Position numbers and translations under genes: made by a program. Shown here piece by piece: positions 36,983 through 42,015 of a stretch of DNA of 64,000 bases (positions are counted from its first letter, which is position 1; each line of letters starts with the position of its first letter). Origin of the DNA: Azospirillum brasilense. GTDB taxonomy: Bacteria; Pseudomonadota; Alphaproteobacteria; Azospirillales; Azospirillaceae. The notes beneath the pieces were generated by a model, which saw only the letters and a program-made list of their open reading frames with translations, was not told the origin of the DNA and did not search any database. Location: the NCBI RefSeq assembly GCF_001315015.1, contig NZ_CP012915.1, forward strand, positions 930,001 to 994,000, read 5' to 3'.

Positions 36983-38584
36983 TTATTGTTTCAAATCGAC
37001 GCCGTAGAAGCGATGGATGCCGAACGGGTCCATCTTGTAATCGACCACATTCTTGCTCAGCGCCATGTGCACGACCGAGTGCGCGACGGTCAGCCACGGA
37101 GCCTCTTCCTTGAAGATGACCTGCGCCTGCTCGTACAGCTTGGTGCGGGCGGCGATGTCGGTGGTGCGCTTGGCCTGCACCACGAGGTCGTCGAACTCCT
37201 TGTAGCACCACTTGGCGATGTTCGACCCGCCCGGACGCGCGGCCTCGCAGCCGAGGAGGACGTGCAGGAAGTTGTCCGGATCGCCGTTGTCGCCGGTCCA
37301 GCCCAGCATGCCCATCTGGTGCTCGCCGGCCTGGAGGCGCTTGCGGTACTCACCCCACTCGTACTGCACGACCTTGGCCTTGATGCCGACCTTGGCGAGG
37401 TCCGCCTGCATCATCTCGGCCATGCGCTTGGCGTTGGGATTGTACGGGCGCTGCACCGGCATGGCCCACAGATCGGTCTCGAAGCCGTCCGGGAAGCCGG
37501 CCTCGGCCAGCAGCTTCTTCGCGCGCTCCGGATCGTACGGGTAGTCCTCGATCTCCTTGTTGTACGACCACATGGTCGGCGGGATCGGGTTCTTCGCCGG
37601 AACGCCGGCGCCCTGATACACCGCGTCGACCACGGCCTTCTTGTCGATGGCCATGTTCAGCGCGCGGCGGACGCGCACGTCGTCGAAGGGCTTCTTGGTG
37701 ACGTTGAAGGCGAGATAGCCGACGTTCAGGCCTTCCTGCTCCATCAGGGTGATGGCGCTGTCCTTCTTCATCGCCTCCAGATCGGCCGGGTTCGGGTACG
37801 GCACGATGTGGCACTCGCCGGCCTTCAACTTGGCGTAGCGGACGGCGGCGTCGGGCGTGATGGCGAAGACGAGGTTGTCGAGCTGCGCCTTGCCGCCCCA
37901 GTATGGCTCGAACGCCTTGTAGCGGATGACCGCGTCCTTCTGGTAGGCGACGAACTGGAACGGGCCGGTGCCGATCGGCGCCTGATCGATCTTGTCGATC
38001 TGGTTCTTCTTCTGCAGGGCCTCGGCGTATTCGGCGGACTGGATGGGCGCGAAGGGCATCGCCAGATTGGCGATGAAGGGCGCCTCGACCTTGTTCAGCG
38101 TGAACTTGACCGTGTAGTCGTCGACCTTCTCGATCGACTTCAGCAGGTCGGGCATCGCCATGTCGTTGAAGTAGTCATAGGCGCCGCCGGACACCTTGTG
38201 GAAGGGGTGATCCTTCTTCCACTGGCGGTTGAACGACCACAGGACATCGTCCGCGTTGGCGTCGCGGGTCGGCTTGAAGTCGTTGTTGCTGTGCCACTTC
38301 ACACCCTTGCGCAGGTGGAACGTGTAGGTCAGCCCGTCCTCCGACACCTCCCACTTCTCGGCGAGGCCGGGGACCACCTTGGTGCCGCCGTACTCGAACT
38401 GCACGAGGTTGTTGTACACGGGCAGCGAGACGTCGAAGCTCGTTCCGGTCGTGTTGACCATCGGGTTGAAGTTTTCGGGGCTGCCCTCGGAGCAATAGAC
38501 GAGGGTCTTGGCGGCCTGGGCCGGCGCAGCAAGCGCCAAGGTGGCGGCAACGCCGAGCCCGGCACCCAGCAGGATGCGCTTCAT
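36983..38584 (-). CDS. dppA: Periplasmic peptide-binding protein DppA
   Basis: 533 residues from ATG 38584 with GGGAGG upstream. The signal peptide (LLGAGLGVAATLALAAPAQA, cleaved before AKTLVY) is followed by an SBP_bac_5 domain: YCSEGSPENFNPMVNTTGTS, GLAEKWEVSEDGLTYTFHLR, the KKPFDDVRVRRALNMAIDK helix and VDYKMDPFGIHRFYGVDL at the end, all very close to enteric DppA. It delivers dipeptides (and possibly haem or aminolevulinate, as some DppA do) to the DppBCDF importer encoded next. Confidence 0.95.
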   Translation of the reverse strand: MKRILLGAGLGVAATLALAAPAQAAKTLVYCSEGSPENFNPMVNTTGTSFDVSLPVYNNLVQFEYGGTKVVPGLAEKWEVSEDGLTYTFHLRKGVKWHSNNDFKPTRDANADDVLWSFNRQWKKDHPFHKVSGGAYDYFNDMAMPDLLKSIEKVDDYTVKFTLNKVEAPFIANLAMPFAPIQSAEYAEALQKKNQIDKIDQAPIGTGPFQFVAYQKDAVIRYKAFEPYWGGKAQLDNLVFAITPDAAVRYAKLKAGECHIVPYPNPADLEAMKKDSAITLMEQEGLNVGYLAFNVTKKPFDDVRVRRALNMAIDKKAVVDAVYQGAGVPAKNPIPPTMWSYNKEIEDYPYDPERAKKLLAEAGFPDGFETDLWAMPVQRPYNPNAKRMAEMMQADLAKVGIKAKVVQYEWGEYRKRLQAGEHQMGMLGWTGDNGDPDNFLHVLLGCEAARPGGSNIAKWCYKEFDDLVVQAKRTTDIAARTKLYEQAQVIFKEEAPWLTVAHSVVHMALSKNVVDYKMDPFGIHRFYGVDLKQ

Positions 38585-38720
38585 TCCTAACAACCTCCCG
38601 TGTTCGGTCGAATGGCCGCCCGTTCTTTTCGGCGGCCGGTGATGCGGGTTCATTTGGCGCGTGGCCGAATCGTCTGTCAACACGCAACCAAGCGGCATCA
38701 CGCAAGCTCCACGGCAGGCG

Positions 38721-39197
38721 TCAGGCCAAGCGGAATTTCAATCGCGGCCCGATCTCCGTGAAGCCCTCGCGCTGGTAGAATCGCAGAGAATCCGGCCATT
38801 CCGCGGCGGACGGCGCCCCCACCTCCACCCGCGACCAGCGATGGCGGCGGCCATGGTCCAGAACGGCCCGGATCAGCACCCGCCCCACCCCGGCGGAGCG
38901 CGACTCCGGTGTCACGTACAATTCCCTGATCGTCCCGAACCGGCCCAACGTGGAGATGCAGGCTCCCTCCGACAGGGTTGCGACGCCGAGCGGGCGCCCC
39001 GCTCCGTCCTCGGCCAGGAACACCGTGCAGGACGGGCCGTCGCCGTTCAGCAGGGATTCGGCGACGGCCAGCATGACGGCCCGCGGCGTGTCGTTCTGCC
39101 CGGCGGAGAGTTCGGAGAGCAGCGCCGCCACGAGGCCGGTGACCGTGCCCGCGTCGGCCAGACCAGCCCTGCGCACATGAACGTCGCTCGATATCAT
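38721..39197 (-). CDS. GNAT-family N-acetyltransferase
   Basis: 158 residues. The acetyl-CoA site appears as LYVTPESRSAGVGRVLIRAVLDHG (R-x-x-G-x-G/A type) and the C-terminal motif as SLRFYQREGFTEIG. The substrate is unknown. It lies immediately next to the A+T-rich reverse-transcriptase island, facing away from it, so it marks the island's left border. It shares a strand with dpp but is separated from dppA by 136 bp and read towards it. Confidence 0.88.
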   Translation of the reverse strand: MISSDVHVRRAGLADAGTVTGLVAALLSELSAGQNDTPRAVMLAVAESLLNGDGPSCTVFLAEDGAGRPLGVATLSEGACISTLGRFGTIRELYVTPESRSAGVGRVLIRAVLDHGRRHRWSRVEVGAPSAAEWPDSLRFYQREGFTEIGPRLKFRLA

Positions 39198-39225
39198 TTT
39201 TCCTCGCTCGCGTTGCCATGGAAGG

Positions 39226-39246
39226 CTTCTGAAGGACTTTCAGAAG
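39226..39246. repeat. Perfect 8-bp hairpin at left edge of the reverse-transcriptase island
   Basis: CTTCTGAA (39226-39233) and TTCAGAAG (39239-39246) pair across a GGACT loop, 29 bp from the GNAT start. It may belong to the GNAT 5' region or to the RT-associated RNA. Confidence 0.6.
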
Positions 39247-39343
39247 TTGCATACCTTTCGAATCGCCCAGATCGAAGCGGACCTACCCTACATGCTGAAA
39301 AAAACGATGAAGGGCTATTGACGGCGTGTCAAAGCACCACTAC

Positions 39344-39653
39344 GTTCAACCCTGGCGCAGCACCACCAATTTGGGATGATGCGTCATCCCGTTACGTCGG
39401 TTCGCCAGGGGAACGGGAGGAACGGTTGAAGCTGTCAAGGCCGAATGCGATCCCCACCAGGAGAAACGCGAGGTTCATGTTGACCTCCGACATCTTGTTG
39501 CGGTTGCACGAAGTCGCCCACGCGAACATCGCTTGGATAGCAGTATAGACCAGCTCGTCGAAGATTCTGCAGACTTAGAGTTAGTTTCGACTAGCTCGCC
39601 GCCAACAGTGTGGAGCGGAAGCGATAATCGCATGCAGGCGTAGCTTCCGCTCC
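39344..39653 (+). ncRNA. Candidate structured non-coding RNA upstream of the reverse transcriptase
   Basis: This gene-free segment is packed with long inverted repeats. Stem 1: GTTC-AA-CCCTGGCG (39344-39357) with CGCCAGGG-GAAC (39403-39414), 12 bp with a 2-nt bulge, enclosing a perfect 7-bp hairpin GGGATGA/TCATCCC (39373-39390). Stem 2: GAGGT/ACCTC (39470-39487). Stem 3: AGCTCGTCGAA (39552-39562) with TTCGACTAGCT (39586-39596), one mismatch. Stem 4: GGAGCGGAAGC (39612-39622) with GCTTCCGCTCC (39643-39653), perfect 11 bp, 20-nt loop. Stem 4 ends 24 bp before the RT start. Retrons and several DRT systems carry such an RNA as RT template; that this is one is inference. The exact ends are unknown. 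Confidence 0.6.
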
Positions 39654-39676
39654 CTCTCGCCTTTGGGAGGGACGCT

Positions 39677-41143
39677 ATGGGGAATTGGCGTCTTAAAGAA
39701 AGAGATCTTAAGAAATATCCACATTTTGATCCAATTATCAGCATAGAAGAAGCTGAAGCACTTGCAACCGATCCAGAACGGGTTGTTAAGCATGCTTTCT
39801 TCCCGTTGATGCGGTATGTTGAAGGATGGAATCGCTTCGCCAAACTTGGCCAGAAAGGTGAAGCTAAAGAGCGGCCAATCCGTTACGCAGCGCGTCGCGA
39901 CGCCTACATTTATCAGAGATATCGGGAAATACTCTCCTCAGCATATGAGAGAGAGCTAACCGCGCTTGGATTGTCCGATAATATTATTGCATATCGGCGC
40001 ATTCCGAGTGGCAGTGGGAGTGGAGGAAAATGCAATATCCATTTTGCGTTTGATGCTTTCCAACGCATCCGCCAGCTTGATAACTGCAATGTAATTGCTC
40101 TTGATATAAGCAAGTATTATGAGTCACTTGACCACAGTCGTATTAAAGAAATATGGTGCCGACTTATAAAATCGGCGCGGCTGCCACGCGATCATTTTCA
40201 AGTTTTTAAATCAATAACTAACTATTCTTATGTTGAAAAGCAAGAAGCCTATGCGCGACTCGGGTATTTTGGAGAGAAAAGAAAAACAAATTCCGGGAAA
40301 ACTATACATGGATACCTGACGCCATACAATGAAACACCAAAGCACCTATGCAAAGGTTATGTTTTTCGAGAAAAGCTAGCAGGTTCCGGACGAGACCGAT
40401 CCATAATTCATAAAAATTACCTTACATATGGCATCCCACAGGGGGCGCCCATATCAGATGTAATAGCCAATTTTTATCTTATTGAATTTGATTTCGAAGT
40501 TTCTGAATTGGCAAAAAAAATGGGAGGATATTATTACAGATACTCTGACGACATCATTCTTATAGTTCCACGCATGCATGACGACGCTCTTGCATTGACT
40601 GATGATATTCGCCTCCTAATTAAGCAGCATGGCGCAAAGTTAGAGATTAAAGAGAAAAAATCATCAGTATTTCACTACTACAAATCTGGAAAAAGGCAGT
40701 TCTTTAGCTTAGTAAAGGGAGAAAAGGGGAAAAATGGAATTGAATATCTTGGGTTTCGTTATGATGGCAATTATATTTACCTAAGAGACAGCACTCTATC
40801 AAATTTGTATAGAAAAATTGTTCGAGCTGTGCGCCATAGTGCAGAAATAAACGCAAGGAGGTTTCCAAACAAAGGCGAAAAAGAAATATTAGAAAGCATC
40901 AATATTGAGGAGATTACAAAATTATTTGGAAAAGTAGAGCGCTTCGATGAAAAATCAGAAAACTATAGAAGCTGGACTTTCTGGACCTACGCATGCAGAG
41001 CAAGGGAAATAATGGGCGACCTCGGAAAACCCATACTTCACCAAGTTAAAAGTTACAATGATTTTATTGAAAGAAGGGCCAAACTGGAGGCGGCGCACGC
41101 GGTGAAGCGGCGAGAAGGCCGCAAGCCGTCTGTATTACCATAG
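39677..41143 (+). CDS. Reverse transcriptase, defence-associated (DRT/unknown-group class, possibly DRT2-like)
   Basis: 488 residues. RT motifs in order: ALDISKYYESLDH (141-153, catalytic Asp), YGIPQGAPISD (251-261), RYSDD (288-292, catalytic pair), LEIKEKKS and EYLGFRYDG. The N-terminus (KKYPHFD, KHAFFPLMRY, IRYAARRDAYIYQRY, GKCNIHFA) resembles the UG/DRT reverse transcriptases rather than retron RTs (no VTG) or group II intron proteins (no maturase or endonuclease). ATG 39677 has GGGAGGGA upstream. Codon use is strikingly A+T-rich against every neighbour, so the gene was acquired; the last 20 residues return to host-like G+C. It ends 1 bp from the stop of the convergent methyltransferase gene. 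The DRT2 assignment is tentative. Confidence 0.85.
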   Translation: MGNWRLKERDLKKYPHFDPIISIEEAEALATDPERVVKHAFFPLMRYVEGWNRFAKLGQKGEAKERPIRYAARRDAYIYQRYREILSSAYERELTALGLSDNIIAYRRIPSGSGSGGKCNIHFAFDAFQRIRQLDNCNVIALDISKYYESLDHSRIKEIWCRLIKSARLPRDHFQVFKSITNYSYVEKQEAYARLGYFGEKRKTNSGKTIHGYLTPYNETPKHLCKGYVFREKLAGSGRDRSIIHKNYLTYGIPQGAPISDVIANFYLIEFDFEVSELAKKMGGYYYRYSDDIILIVPRMHDDALALTDDIRLLIKQHGAKLEIKEKKSSVFHYYKSGKRQFFSLVKGEKGKNGIEYLGFRYDGNYIYLRDSTLSNLYRKIVRAVRHSAEINARRFPNKGEKEILESINIEEITKLFGKVERFDEKSENYRSWTFWTYACRAREIMGDLGKPILHQVKSYNDFIERRAKLEAAHAVKRREGRKPSVLP

Positions 41144-41144
41144 A

Positions 41145-41909
41145 TCAGCAAGCCTCCGCTTCGATGGTCAGGCTGTCCAGGAGAAAGCTGCCGTCCTCCA
41201 GGATGTCGAAGTGGCGGCGCACCTCGTCGGAGGCGAGGTCCTGCAGGGCCCGGATGGCCTGGGCGCGCAGGTCCGGGGTGGAGGTGCGGGCGGTCCAGAC
41301 GGCGAACTCCATGCGCAGGCGGCGCGGCGTCAGGCCGGTCACCGCGAAACCGGCGCGCGACAGGGCGGCCATCCATTCGGCGGCGCTGTAGTTGCGGACG
41401 TGCGAGGTGTCGCGCAGCAGTTCCACGGCCTGGAGGTGGGTGTCCAGCAGCGGGTGGCCCGGCGACACGATGTCGACGAAGACCGCCCGCCCGCCGGGGG
41501 CCAGCACCCGCCGCGCCTCGCGCAGGCCGGCCTCGGCGTTCAGCCAGTGATGGGCGCTGAAGCGGCTCAGCACCACGTCGAAATGGCCGTCCGCGAAGGG
41601 CAGACGCTCGGCGGGGGCTTGGGTGGTGGTGATGTTGGTCAGCCCGCGCTCCGCCGCGGTGCGGGCCACCGCCTCCAGCATCGGGGCAGTGACGTCCACG
41701 GCGACCACCTCGGCGGCGTGCGGCGCGGCGCGGTAGGCGACATGGCCGCCGCCGCAGCCGAGATCCAGCACGCGGCCGGCGTTCCTCCCGCGCAGCGTGT
41801 CCTCGATCTGGTCCAGGTCGGCGCCCGAGGCGTGGACGGCGCTGGTCACATAGGCGTCGGCGCGCTGGCCGTACTGCGCGGCGACGACGCCGTGGTGGCT
41901 GTTGGTCAT
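41145..41909 (-). CDS. Class I SAM-dependent methyltransferase
   Basis: 254 residues from ATG 41909 (MTNSHHGVVAAQYGQRADAY). Motif I is VLDLGCGGGHVAYR, then VAVDVTAPML, FDVVLSRFSAHHW and GLREARRVLAPGGRAVFVD, as in Methyltransf_11 enzymes of the UbiE/arsenite type. The substrate is unknown. It is divergent from an MmyB-type regulator with a perfect operator-like palindrome between, so the two are probably one regulatory unit. Confidence 0.9.
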   Translation of the reverse strand: MTNSHHGVVAAQYGQRADAYVTSAVHASGADLDQIEDTLRGRNAGRVLDLGCGGGHVAYRAAPHAAEVVAVDVTAPMLEAVARTAAERGLTNITTTQAPAERLPFADGHFDVVLSRFSAHHWLNAEAGLREARRVLAPGGRAVFVDIVSPGHPLLDTHLQAVELLRDTSHVRNYSAAEWMAALSRAGFAVTGLTPRRLRMEFAVWTARTSTPDLRAQAIRALQDLASDEVRRHFDILEDGSFLLDSLTIEAEAC

Positions 41910-41991
41910 GGTGGCGATTCCGTTGGTGTTTGTTGGGGCGTGTCCGTTGTGATGACCCAGCATCGGGCTTCCGGCAAACTGGTACAAGGCA

Positions 41992-42015
41992 AGCGCTTAT
42001 CCTGGTATAAGCGCT
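41992..42015. promoter_or_regulatory. Perfect 9-bp inverted repeat, operator of the MmyB-type regulator
   Basis: AGCGCTTAT (41992-42000) and ATAAGCGCT (42007-42015) are exact complements with a 6-bp spacer. It sits 7 bp before the regulator start and 83 bp from the methyltransferase start, so a bound dimer would block the regulator's own translation region and control the divergent promoter. Confidence 0.75.

Follow-up and report, generated by a model that had tools for sequence, protein, structure and literature searches.

The closest described relative of the locus considered here is KpnDRT2 (PDB 9c0i). As set out in the cited parts of the two papers on it, a reverse transcriptase (RT) makes tandem copies of a template, and the junction between repeats forms a promoter and a reading frame free of stops (PMC11100668, PMC12039810); its jump motif is ACA (PMC11100668). 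For divergent DRT2 clades, the discoverers noted in the same source that the protein product, Neo, is hard to annotate, and they raised alternative mechanisms (PMC11100668). DRT9 and DRT10 (UG17) are described, in the part of the source cited, as class 2 RTs that use a non-coding RNA (ncRNA) as template and make repetitive cDNA, a homopolymer in DRT9 and a protein-primed tandem-repeat cDNA, with further proteins, in DRT10 (PMC12632851). Here we analyse a 64,000-nt stretch of Azospirillum brasilense DNA (contig NZ_CP012915.1, positions 930,001 to 994,000), called the window below, in which a lone RT gene follows a region predicted to encode a structured ncRNA with a 5′ handle and a 3′ scaffold. 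We read the locus, with a probability of roughly 0.83, as a DRT2-type abortive-infection system that lies on a divergent, mainly alphaproteobacterial branch and makes Neo; the sequences compared below indicate that this branch probably makes Neo as well. Among the titles and abstract openings searched, DRT2 or Neo was not mentioned for Azospirillum or this clade, supplementary tables lying outside that search.

The original prediction, drawn from the sequence of the stretch, had proposed a DRT-type RT, possibly DRT2, and the profile searches bear this out. In PADLOC the RT scores 437 bits (PDLC03757) and 311 bits (PDLC02173) against Drt2 models, whereas the UG17 model, next in line, reaches 66 bits and the Drt9 model 45 bits, which sets it apart from DRT9 and DRT10. 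Against PDB sequences, KpnDRT2 entries match at 2e-56 to 1e-58 and all others at 8e-5 or worse. A structure model of the RT (AlphaFold2, AF2, from 26 sequences; predicted local distance difference test, pLDDT, 89) retrieves 9c0i first in Foldseek (E 6.4e-34, template-modelling scores 0.74/0.84) and DRT9 second (E 4.5e-11). The RT falls outside the retron RTs (retron St85, 48 bits vs a cut-off of 235) and the maturase-type RTs (TIGR04416, 57 bits vs 300); it shares with retron and group II intron enzymes the RT palm motifs and scores far below their cut-offs. An Rfam scan of positions 38500-42000, group II intron RNA included, gave no match. RVT_1 is the sole Pfam domain above cut-off, and the interval holds no other open reading frame (ORF) of gene quality, hence no second protein, in keeping with the proposal of an RT plus ncRNA and nothing else. 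The top NCBIfam model is again Drt2 (NF041746), at 352.6 bits vs an equivalog cut-off of 390. All 27 clade RTs scanned match this model, the best at an E-value of 3.9e-112, which we reckon at about 376 bits by scaling from the score of the window RT. In a quick tree of 77 rows (no bootstrap, root L108 chosen by hand; L and G numbers denote loci and genomes), the window RT falls in a group of 63 rows, mostly alphaproteobacterial by record titles, with a support of 85 in the Shimodaira-Hasegawa-like approximate likelihood ratio test (SH-aLRT). KpnDRT2 relatives lie in a separate group (SH-aLRT 99), of which L097 matches 9c0i at 1e-147. Judged by profile and modelled fold, the RT is a member of the UG2/DRT2 family. 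Because of the missed cut-off and the jump motif described below, the system is DRT2 in the wide (UG2) sense and stands outside the KpnDRT2 core.

A hidden gene is predicted in the region upstream of the RT. Site models for which 62 units served as training set, the window being left out, recognised a single pair of sites when both strands of the 64 kb were scanned, and the pair delimits the predicted template (Table 1). When reverse-complement copies of this template are joined end to end, and only then, a TTGACA-17-TATACT promoter arises at the junction. It matches 11 of 12 positions, vs 8 at best in the linear DNA. As arranged in the genome, the region 39190-39680 holds no promoter-like site, and the order of the -35 and -10 elements is reversed there. 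The repeat unit runs through the junction without a stop and carries a Shine-Dalgarno sequence followed by an in-frame ATG. AF2 models one repeat as two helices (residues 2-17 and 22-43; mean pLDDT 72, predicted template-modelling score 0.33), and two helices have been proposed for Neo in the cited part of PMC11100668. The upstream region had been taken to be gene-free. That no gene is called in 39198-39676 holds; the refinement is that the region is a predicted ncRNA which would spell a gene only when concatenated. The long plus-strand ORF in the same interval is the antisense of the GNAT acetyltransferase gene, running on.

Whether this arrangement is peculiar to the window can be judged from its relatives. 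A four-sequence alignment was used to scan genomes, and the best 80 of the 260 loci, together with the window, L012, L016 and L017, gave 84 upstream regions. A search by motif, which called for -35-like and -10-like hexamers set exactly 17 bp apart over the junction and made no use of the frame, found a pair in 50 of the 84. The length was divisible by three in 46 of these 50 (12 distinct values, 96 to 168), and frame 0 was stop-free in all 46 units of triplet length. Site models trained on 42 units (L080, a doubtful unit of 168 nt, and three near-duplicates were omitted by choice) were applied to the remaining regions and returned 25 non-duplicate held-out matches. Twenty-two had lengths divisible by three, where chance gives one third (about 2e-8 by a hand binomial that ignores kinship), and all 22 were open in frame 0; two of the 22 templates were at least 80% identical to a training one. 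Eight of the 84 regions were excluded, namely the gammaproteobacterial, KpnDRT2-like L095-L098, L034 at a contig end, and the near-duplicates L019, L031 and L032. Intact units are present in 64 of the 76 testable regions, window included, and 50 units, whose lengths take 12 values between 96 and 150, remain after removal of those at least 80% identical. Other frames of the same strand are open in 3 of 128 cases. An in-frame ATG stands behind a Shine-Dalgarno sequence in 45 of the 64 units (1.9 expected), and the mean hydropathy of the neo repeats is +0.64, vs -0.59 for the two alternative frames on the same strand. Among IMG/VR viral contigs, searches with the window protein and with L097 found no relatives, and a search with alignment A1 found one clade member, L153, which lay outside the training and has an open unit of 141 nt.

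These regularities bear on the alternative that survives best, namely that the cDNA of this DRT2-like RT acts untranslated, as a nucleic acid, in the manner of DRT9. The distant resemblance of the RT to DRT9 and the discoverers' remarks on divergent clades, quoted above from PMC11100668, speak for it, as does the fact that a Neo product is a prediction here. Against it, the frame, the triplet length, the hydrophobicity and the start signal are preserved over 12 template lengths, and we regard it as unlikely.

In rolling-circle synthesis the RT would have to regain its place after each circuit, and the predicted signal for this differs from that of KpnDRT2. When the junction is moved by 0 to +8 nt into the template the frames stay open, and when it is moved upstream they are lost in 63 of 64 units at -1, 56 of 64 at -2 and 36 of 63 at -6. 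The openness at 0 is by selection of the units; the asymmetry is not. Therefore the template most likely starts, as far as the sequences tell, at the GU of jump site 1. The two jump sites are identical at position 0 in 59 of 64 units vs 47.3 expected (0 of 2000 permutations as high), and among the dissimilar units in 45 of 50 vs 39.8 expected (3 of 5000 permutations). Position 1 is T at both sites in 64 of 64, and GT or CT stands at both sites in 59 of 64; of the positions between -6 and +11, position 0 alone attained p 0.05 for identity between the sites. A longer match seen by eye in the window (GAAG, 39428-39431 with 39560-39563) was dropped, the two bases GT at 39425/39557 being all that the 64 units share throughout. 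With some hesitation, we suggest that the branch could represent a distinct class of rolling-circle gene synthesis, in which the jump takes two bases, GU or CU, the register is set by an RNA-protein scaffold rather than by homology, and the promoter spacing and frame are kept exactly.

Triplet lengths and matching jump sites would be needless if the unit were an ordinary small minus-strand gene that lies in the RNA region and is translated directly from the genome, no cDNA being involved. The minus strand of the linear DNA does have a Shine-Dalgarno sequence, an ATG and a short frame; the genomic order of the -35 and -10 elements is wrong for such a gene and no promoter-like site was found there, which makes this explanation very improbable.

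Like KpnDRT2, the window has a lone UG2 RT and, by prediction, an upstream ncRNA with a 5′ handle and a 3′ scaffold, a template of triplet length, a 17-bp spacer in the junction promoter, an antisense stop-free neo frame and a product that is hydrophobic and helical. Unlike KpnDRT2, its RT has 488 rather than 425 amino acids and YSDD in place of YCDD, with an identity of 30% to 9c0i in the structural alignment; its jump homology is GU rather than ACA, its unit 132 rather than 120 nt, and it has no Rfam match. Eleven upstream regions of the KpnDRT2 group were examined for comparison (L157 was dropped, its start being unplaced). In six a clear unit is present, 111-123 nt long and with a 17-bp spacer when read in the ACA register; five of these are open only in that register, and L103 is open in both. 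L159 is unclear, and L154, L155, L102 and L104 gave none; a 144-nt candidate in L102 with a 16-bp spacer was unsupported on a second look. The junction divides the spacer as 8 + 9 in the window vs 6 + 11 in these six, which are relatives of KpnDRT2 and not its own sequence. Their jump triplets are ACA/ACA in three, ACA/ATA in two and ATA/ATA in one, and thus, on these sequences, ACA is followed only loosely beyond the close relatives.

Other DRT2-like RTs were searched with at least three matching jump bases required. Under this requirement no neo unit was found for L004, L005, L014, L104, L105 and L106, while L006 and L108 gave weak candidates and L107 a possible unit of 129 nt. L004 and L005, from Azospirillum genomes G042 and G022, are distant DRT2-like RTs (36%) of another branch. 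Small "hypothetical proteins" are annotated just upstream of the DRT2-type RT genes at L106:1665-1793, L107:1653-1787 and L108:1659-1811 (minus strand, opposite to the RT), which may in fact be neo units mistaken for conventional genes.

The inverted repeats that had been noticed upstream of the RT are present and coincide with the predicted RNA helices. Perfect arms of 11 bp (39612-39622/39643-39653) lie within the tower-like hairpin, in which 11 of 13 pairs show double changes among 26 sequences. A second repeat (39384-39393/39412-39421) overlaps the 5′ handle, in which 5 of 6 pairs show double changes and 92.5% of cells are paired among 25 sequences. The covariation score of both hairpins was reached by 0 of 500 shuffles, and slid partners scored clearly lower; the structures came from the same alignments, relatedness was left in, and the 26 and 25 sequences were hand-picked as window-like. 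A covariance model of the 3′ domain (R1, built from 26 sequences including the window) was run on 66 sources, comprising the window, 51 clade loci that had not gone into the model and 14 loci from different DRT2 groups (L095-L098, L102-L108, L004-L006). It matches upstream of the RT in 36 of the 51 clade loci at E<=0.01 and in 42 at E<=1, and in 0 of the 14 others; many matches begin at the second jump site. Five extra matches up to E 1 on the minus strand were taken as noise. No sequence upstream of the RT was recognised as the promoter that would drive the ncRNA.

Taken together, the family and fold of the RT, the ncRNA helices, the template limits, the frame, the promoter geometry and the start signal form the sequence basis of our reading, and they are conserved over dozens of relatives. 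The steps that follow are modelled on KpnDRT2. The RT would bind the ncRNA made directly upstream (about 39384-39660) and copy the 132-nt template starting at its 3′ end. At the 5′-terminal GU, the new DNA end (...AAC-3′) would re-pair with the second GU, which adjoins the template on its 3′ side, so that the RT repeats the circuit and makes tandem repeats of the reverse complement. Once the repeats become double-stranded, as they do in KpnDRT2 upon phage infection, each junction would form the promoter for a stop-free mRNA, which, translated from GGAGGT...ATG, would yield Neo, a hydrophobic helical repeat protein of 44 amino acids per repeat that would stop growth. By analogy, then, we infer RNA binding, rolling-circle synthesis, the phage trigger, the second strand, Neo production and growth arrest, as well as defence, and with it the antiphage role that the original prediction had judged probable for the system.

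Several observations count against this reading. By site model, 12 of the 76 testable regions are without an intact unit: the neo frame is broken in L081, L084 and L094, and no site was found in L043, L060, L061, L071, L072, L075, L076, L080 and L091. When ends were taken from the covariance model, post hoc, L043 (with a weak anchor), L060, L076 and L080 gave open units, L075 was one base off, L091 had no model match, and L061, L071 and L072 still gave no open unit. The 64 units were picked on the promoter hexamers and on an open frame, so that the promoter score and the register-0 openness are partly by construction. Under resampling of template interiors, frame 0 is open by chance at 62% in the window and at 37% per locus on average, and the open frame is for that reason weak evidence in the window alone and strong evidence in the whole set. 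The hydropathies of the forward-strand frames are -0.57, +0.31 and -0.63, one of them thus being hydrophobic too. The match between the jump sites spans few bases and has exceptions, 5 of 64 units differing at position 0, and the ACA motifs are absent in the window, which has GT/GT instead. C/C at position 0 occurs in seven loci, whose record titles name Rhizobium, Agrobacterium, Allorhizobium, Brucella and Devosia; because those placed in the tree are one clade, the covariation may rest on few events. Confidence in the Neo structure model is moderate, the single-sequence fold of the window ncRNA is slightly better than shuffles (z -1.29), and a basal stem like SL2 was not established. To these the NF041746 score under the cut-off has to be added, which also suggests why annotation by the NCBI Drt2 cut-off would miss such systems. 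If the reading of a Neo-making DRT2 holds, the limits of a hidden gene are predicted with single-base precision in a divergent branch with a different jump signal, and the generality of gene synthesis from RNA becomes directly testable, with ACA, GU and CU as a natural comparison for how an RT regains its place.

Table 1. Positions of the features in the 64,000-nt window.
Feature	Position	Strand	Basis or remark
Predicted reverse-transcription template, 132 nt	39425-39556	+	site model; arrangement shared by 63 relatives
neo repeat unit of 44 codons, stop-free through the junction: ELVYTAIQAMFAWATSCNRNKMSEVNMNLAFLLVGIAFGLDSFN	39425-39556	-	end-to-end reverse complement
TTGACA, -35 of junction promoter	39433-39438	-	8 + 9 = 17-bp spacer to -10 of next repeat
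TATACT, -10 of junction promoter	39542-39547	-	junction with next repeat
Shine-Dalgarno GGAGGT and in-frame ATG (codon 27 of unit)	39476-39488	-	window: GGAGGTCAACATG
Jump site 1 (GT, template 5′ end)	39425-39426	+	base match to jump site 2
Jump site 2 (GT, just 3′ of template)	39557-39558	+	identity with jump site 1
Predicted 5′ handle hairpin (CCCGTT/AACGGG)	39388-39417	+	covariation, 25 sequences
Predicted 3′ scaffold domain	39557-39659	+	covariance model R1
Predicted tower-like scaffold hairpin	39612-39653	+	covariation, 26 sequences
RT ORF, Drt2/UG2 reverse transcriptase	39677-41143	+	488 amino acids, ATG start, RYSDD motif
Acquired segment between GNAT gene and methyltransferase gene	39186-41144	.	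BLAST vs RT-less loci of 12 relatives
GNAT acetyltransferase gene	38721-39197	-	flanks island
S-adenosylmethionine methyltransferase gene	41145-41987	-	flanks island

The system occupies an island of about 1.95 kb which, as proposed, was acquired. The RT gene, described as A+T-rich between G+C-rich neighbours, has a GC content of 0.411 and the island of 0.444, vs 0.667 and 0.707 in the flanks. Flank alignments of RT-less relatives stop at about 39184-39189 and 41140-41145, which refines the limits of the acquired segment. In eight congeners (G004, G005, G006, G015, G019, G036, G038 and G043), the comparison covering genomes where the flanking pair was detected at the thresholds used, 33-36 bp separate the flanking genes, measured between their matched ends, vs 1950 bp in the window. 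In G007 a sequence similar to the 0.7-kb insert described below abuts the methyltransferase gene, but the flanking genes are on different contigs. A close RT copy occurs in 2 of 45 genomes of the genus, its own and G002 (98% identical and syntenic), so the gene is not fixed there. Any match to the RT was found in 9 of 82 genomes of the family, the remaining seven being 32-44% identical over part or most of the protein. A 100% identical copy is recorded in plasmid p1 of A. brasilense strain MTCC4038.

That the system is a decayed or inactive relic is also very unlikely: interrupted or short RT frames in several relatives and the three broken neo frames would agree with it, but in the window both RT and neo are intact, and relative to the A. 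brasilense BR 11026 copy the RT shows 31 differences in 1464 positions with a ratio of nonsynonymous to synonymous rates (dN/dS) of 0.126, while the ncRNA of the two copies shows 0 changes in 293 nt. The interrupted case is L016 (G438; 54% over the first half), a close relative in which a frame change together with a TGA breaks the RT; its neo unit of 123 nt is nevertheless intact. Short RT frames occur also in L022, L033, L049, L063, L090 and L093, from assembly error or decay.

Three clade members are titled Acidobacteriaceae (L059), Acidicapsa (L071) and Solirubrobacterales (L037), which suggests wide transfer or misbinned contigs; the unit of L059, at 96 nt, is the shortest of the 64. At the GNAT-methyltransferase junction itself, G008, G009 and G039 (L116:785-1494, L118 and L114) carry a different insert of about 0.7 kb. 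It encodes a protein of 130-139 amino acids with a start resembling a signal peptide and, in the one copy scanned, no Pfam match. The junction is a possible insertion hotspot.
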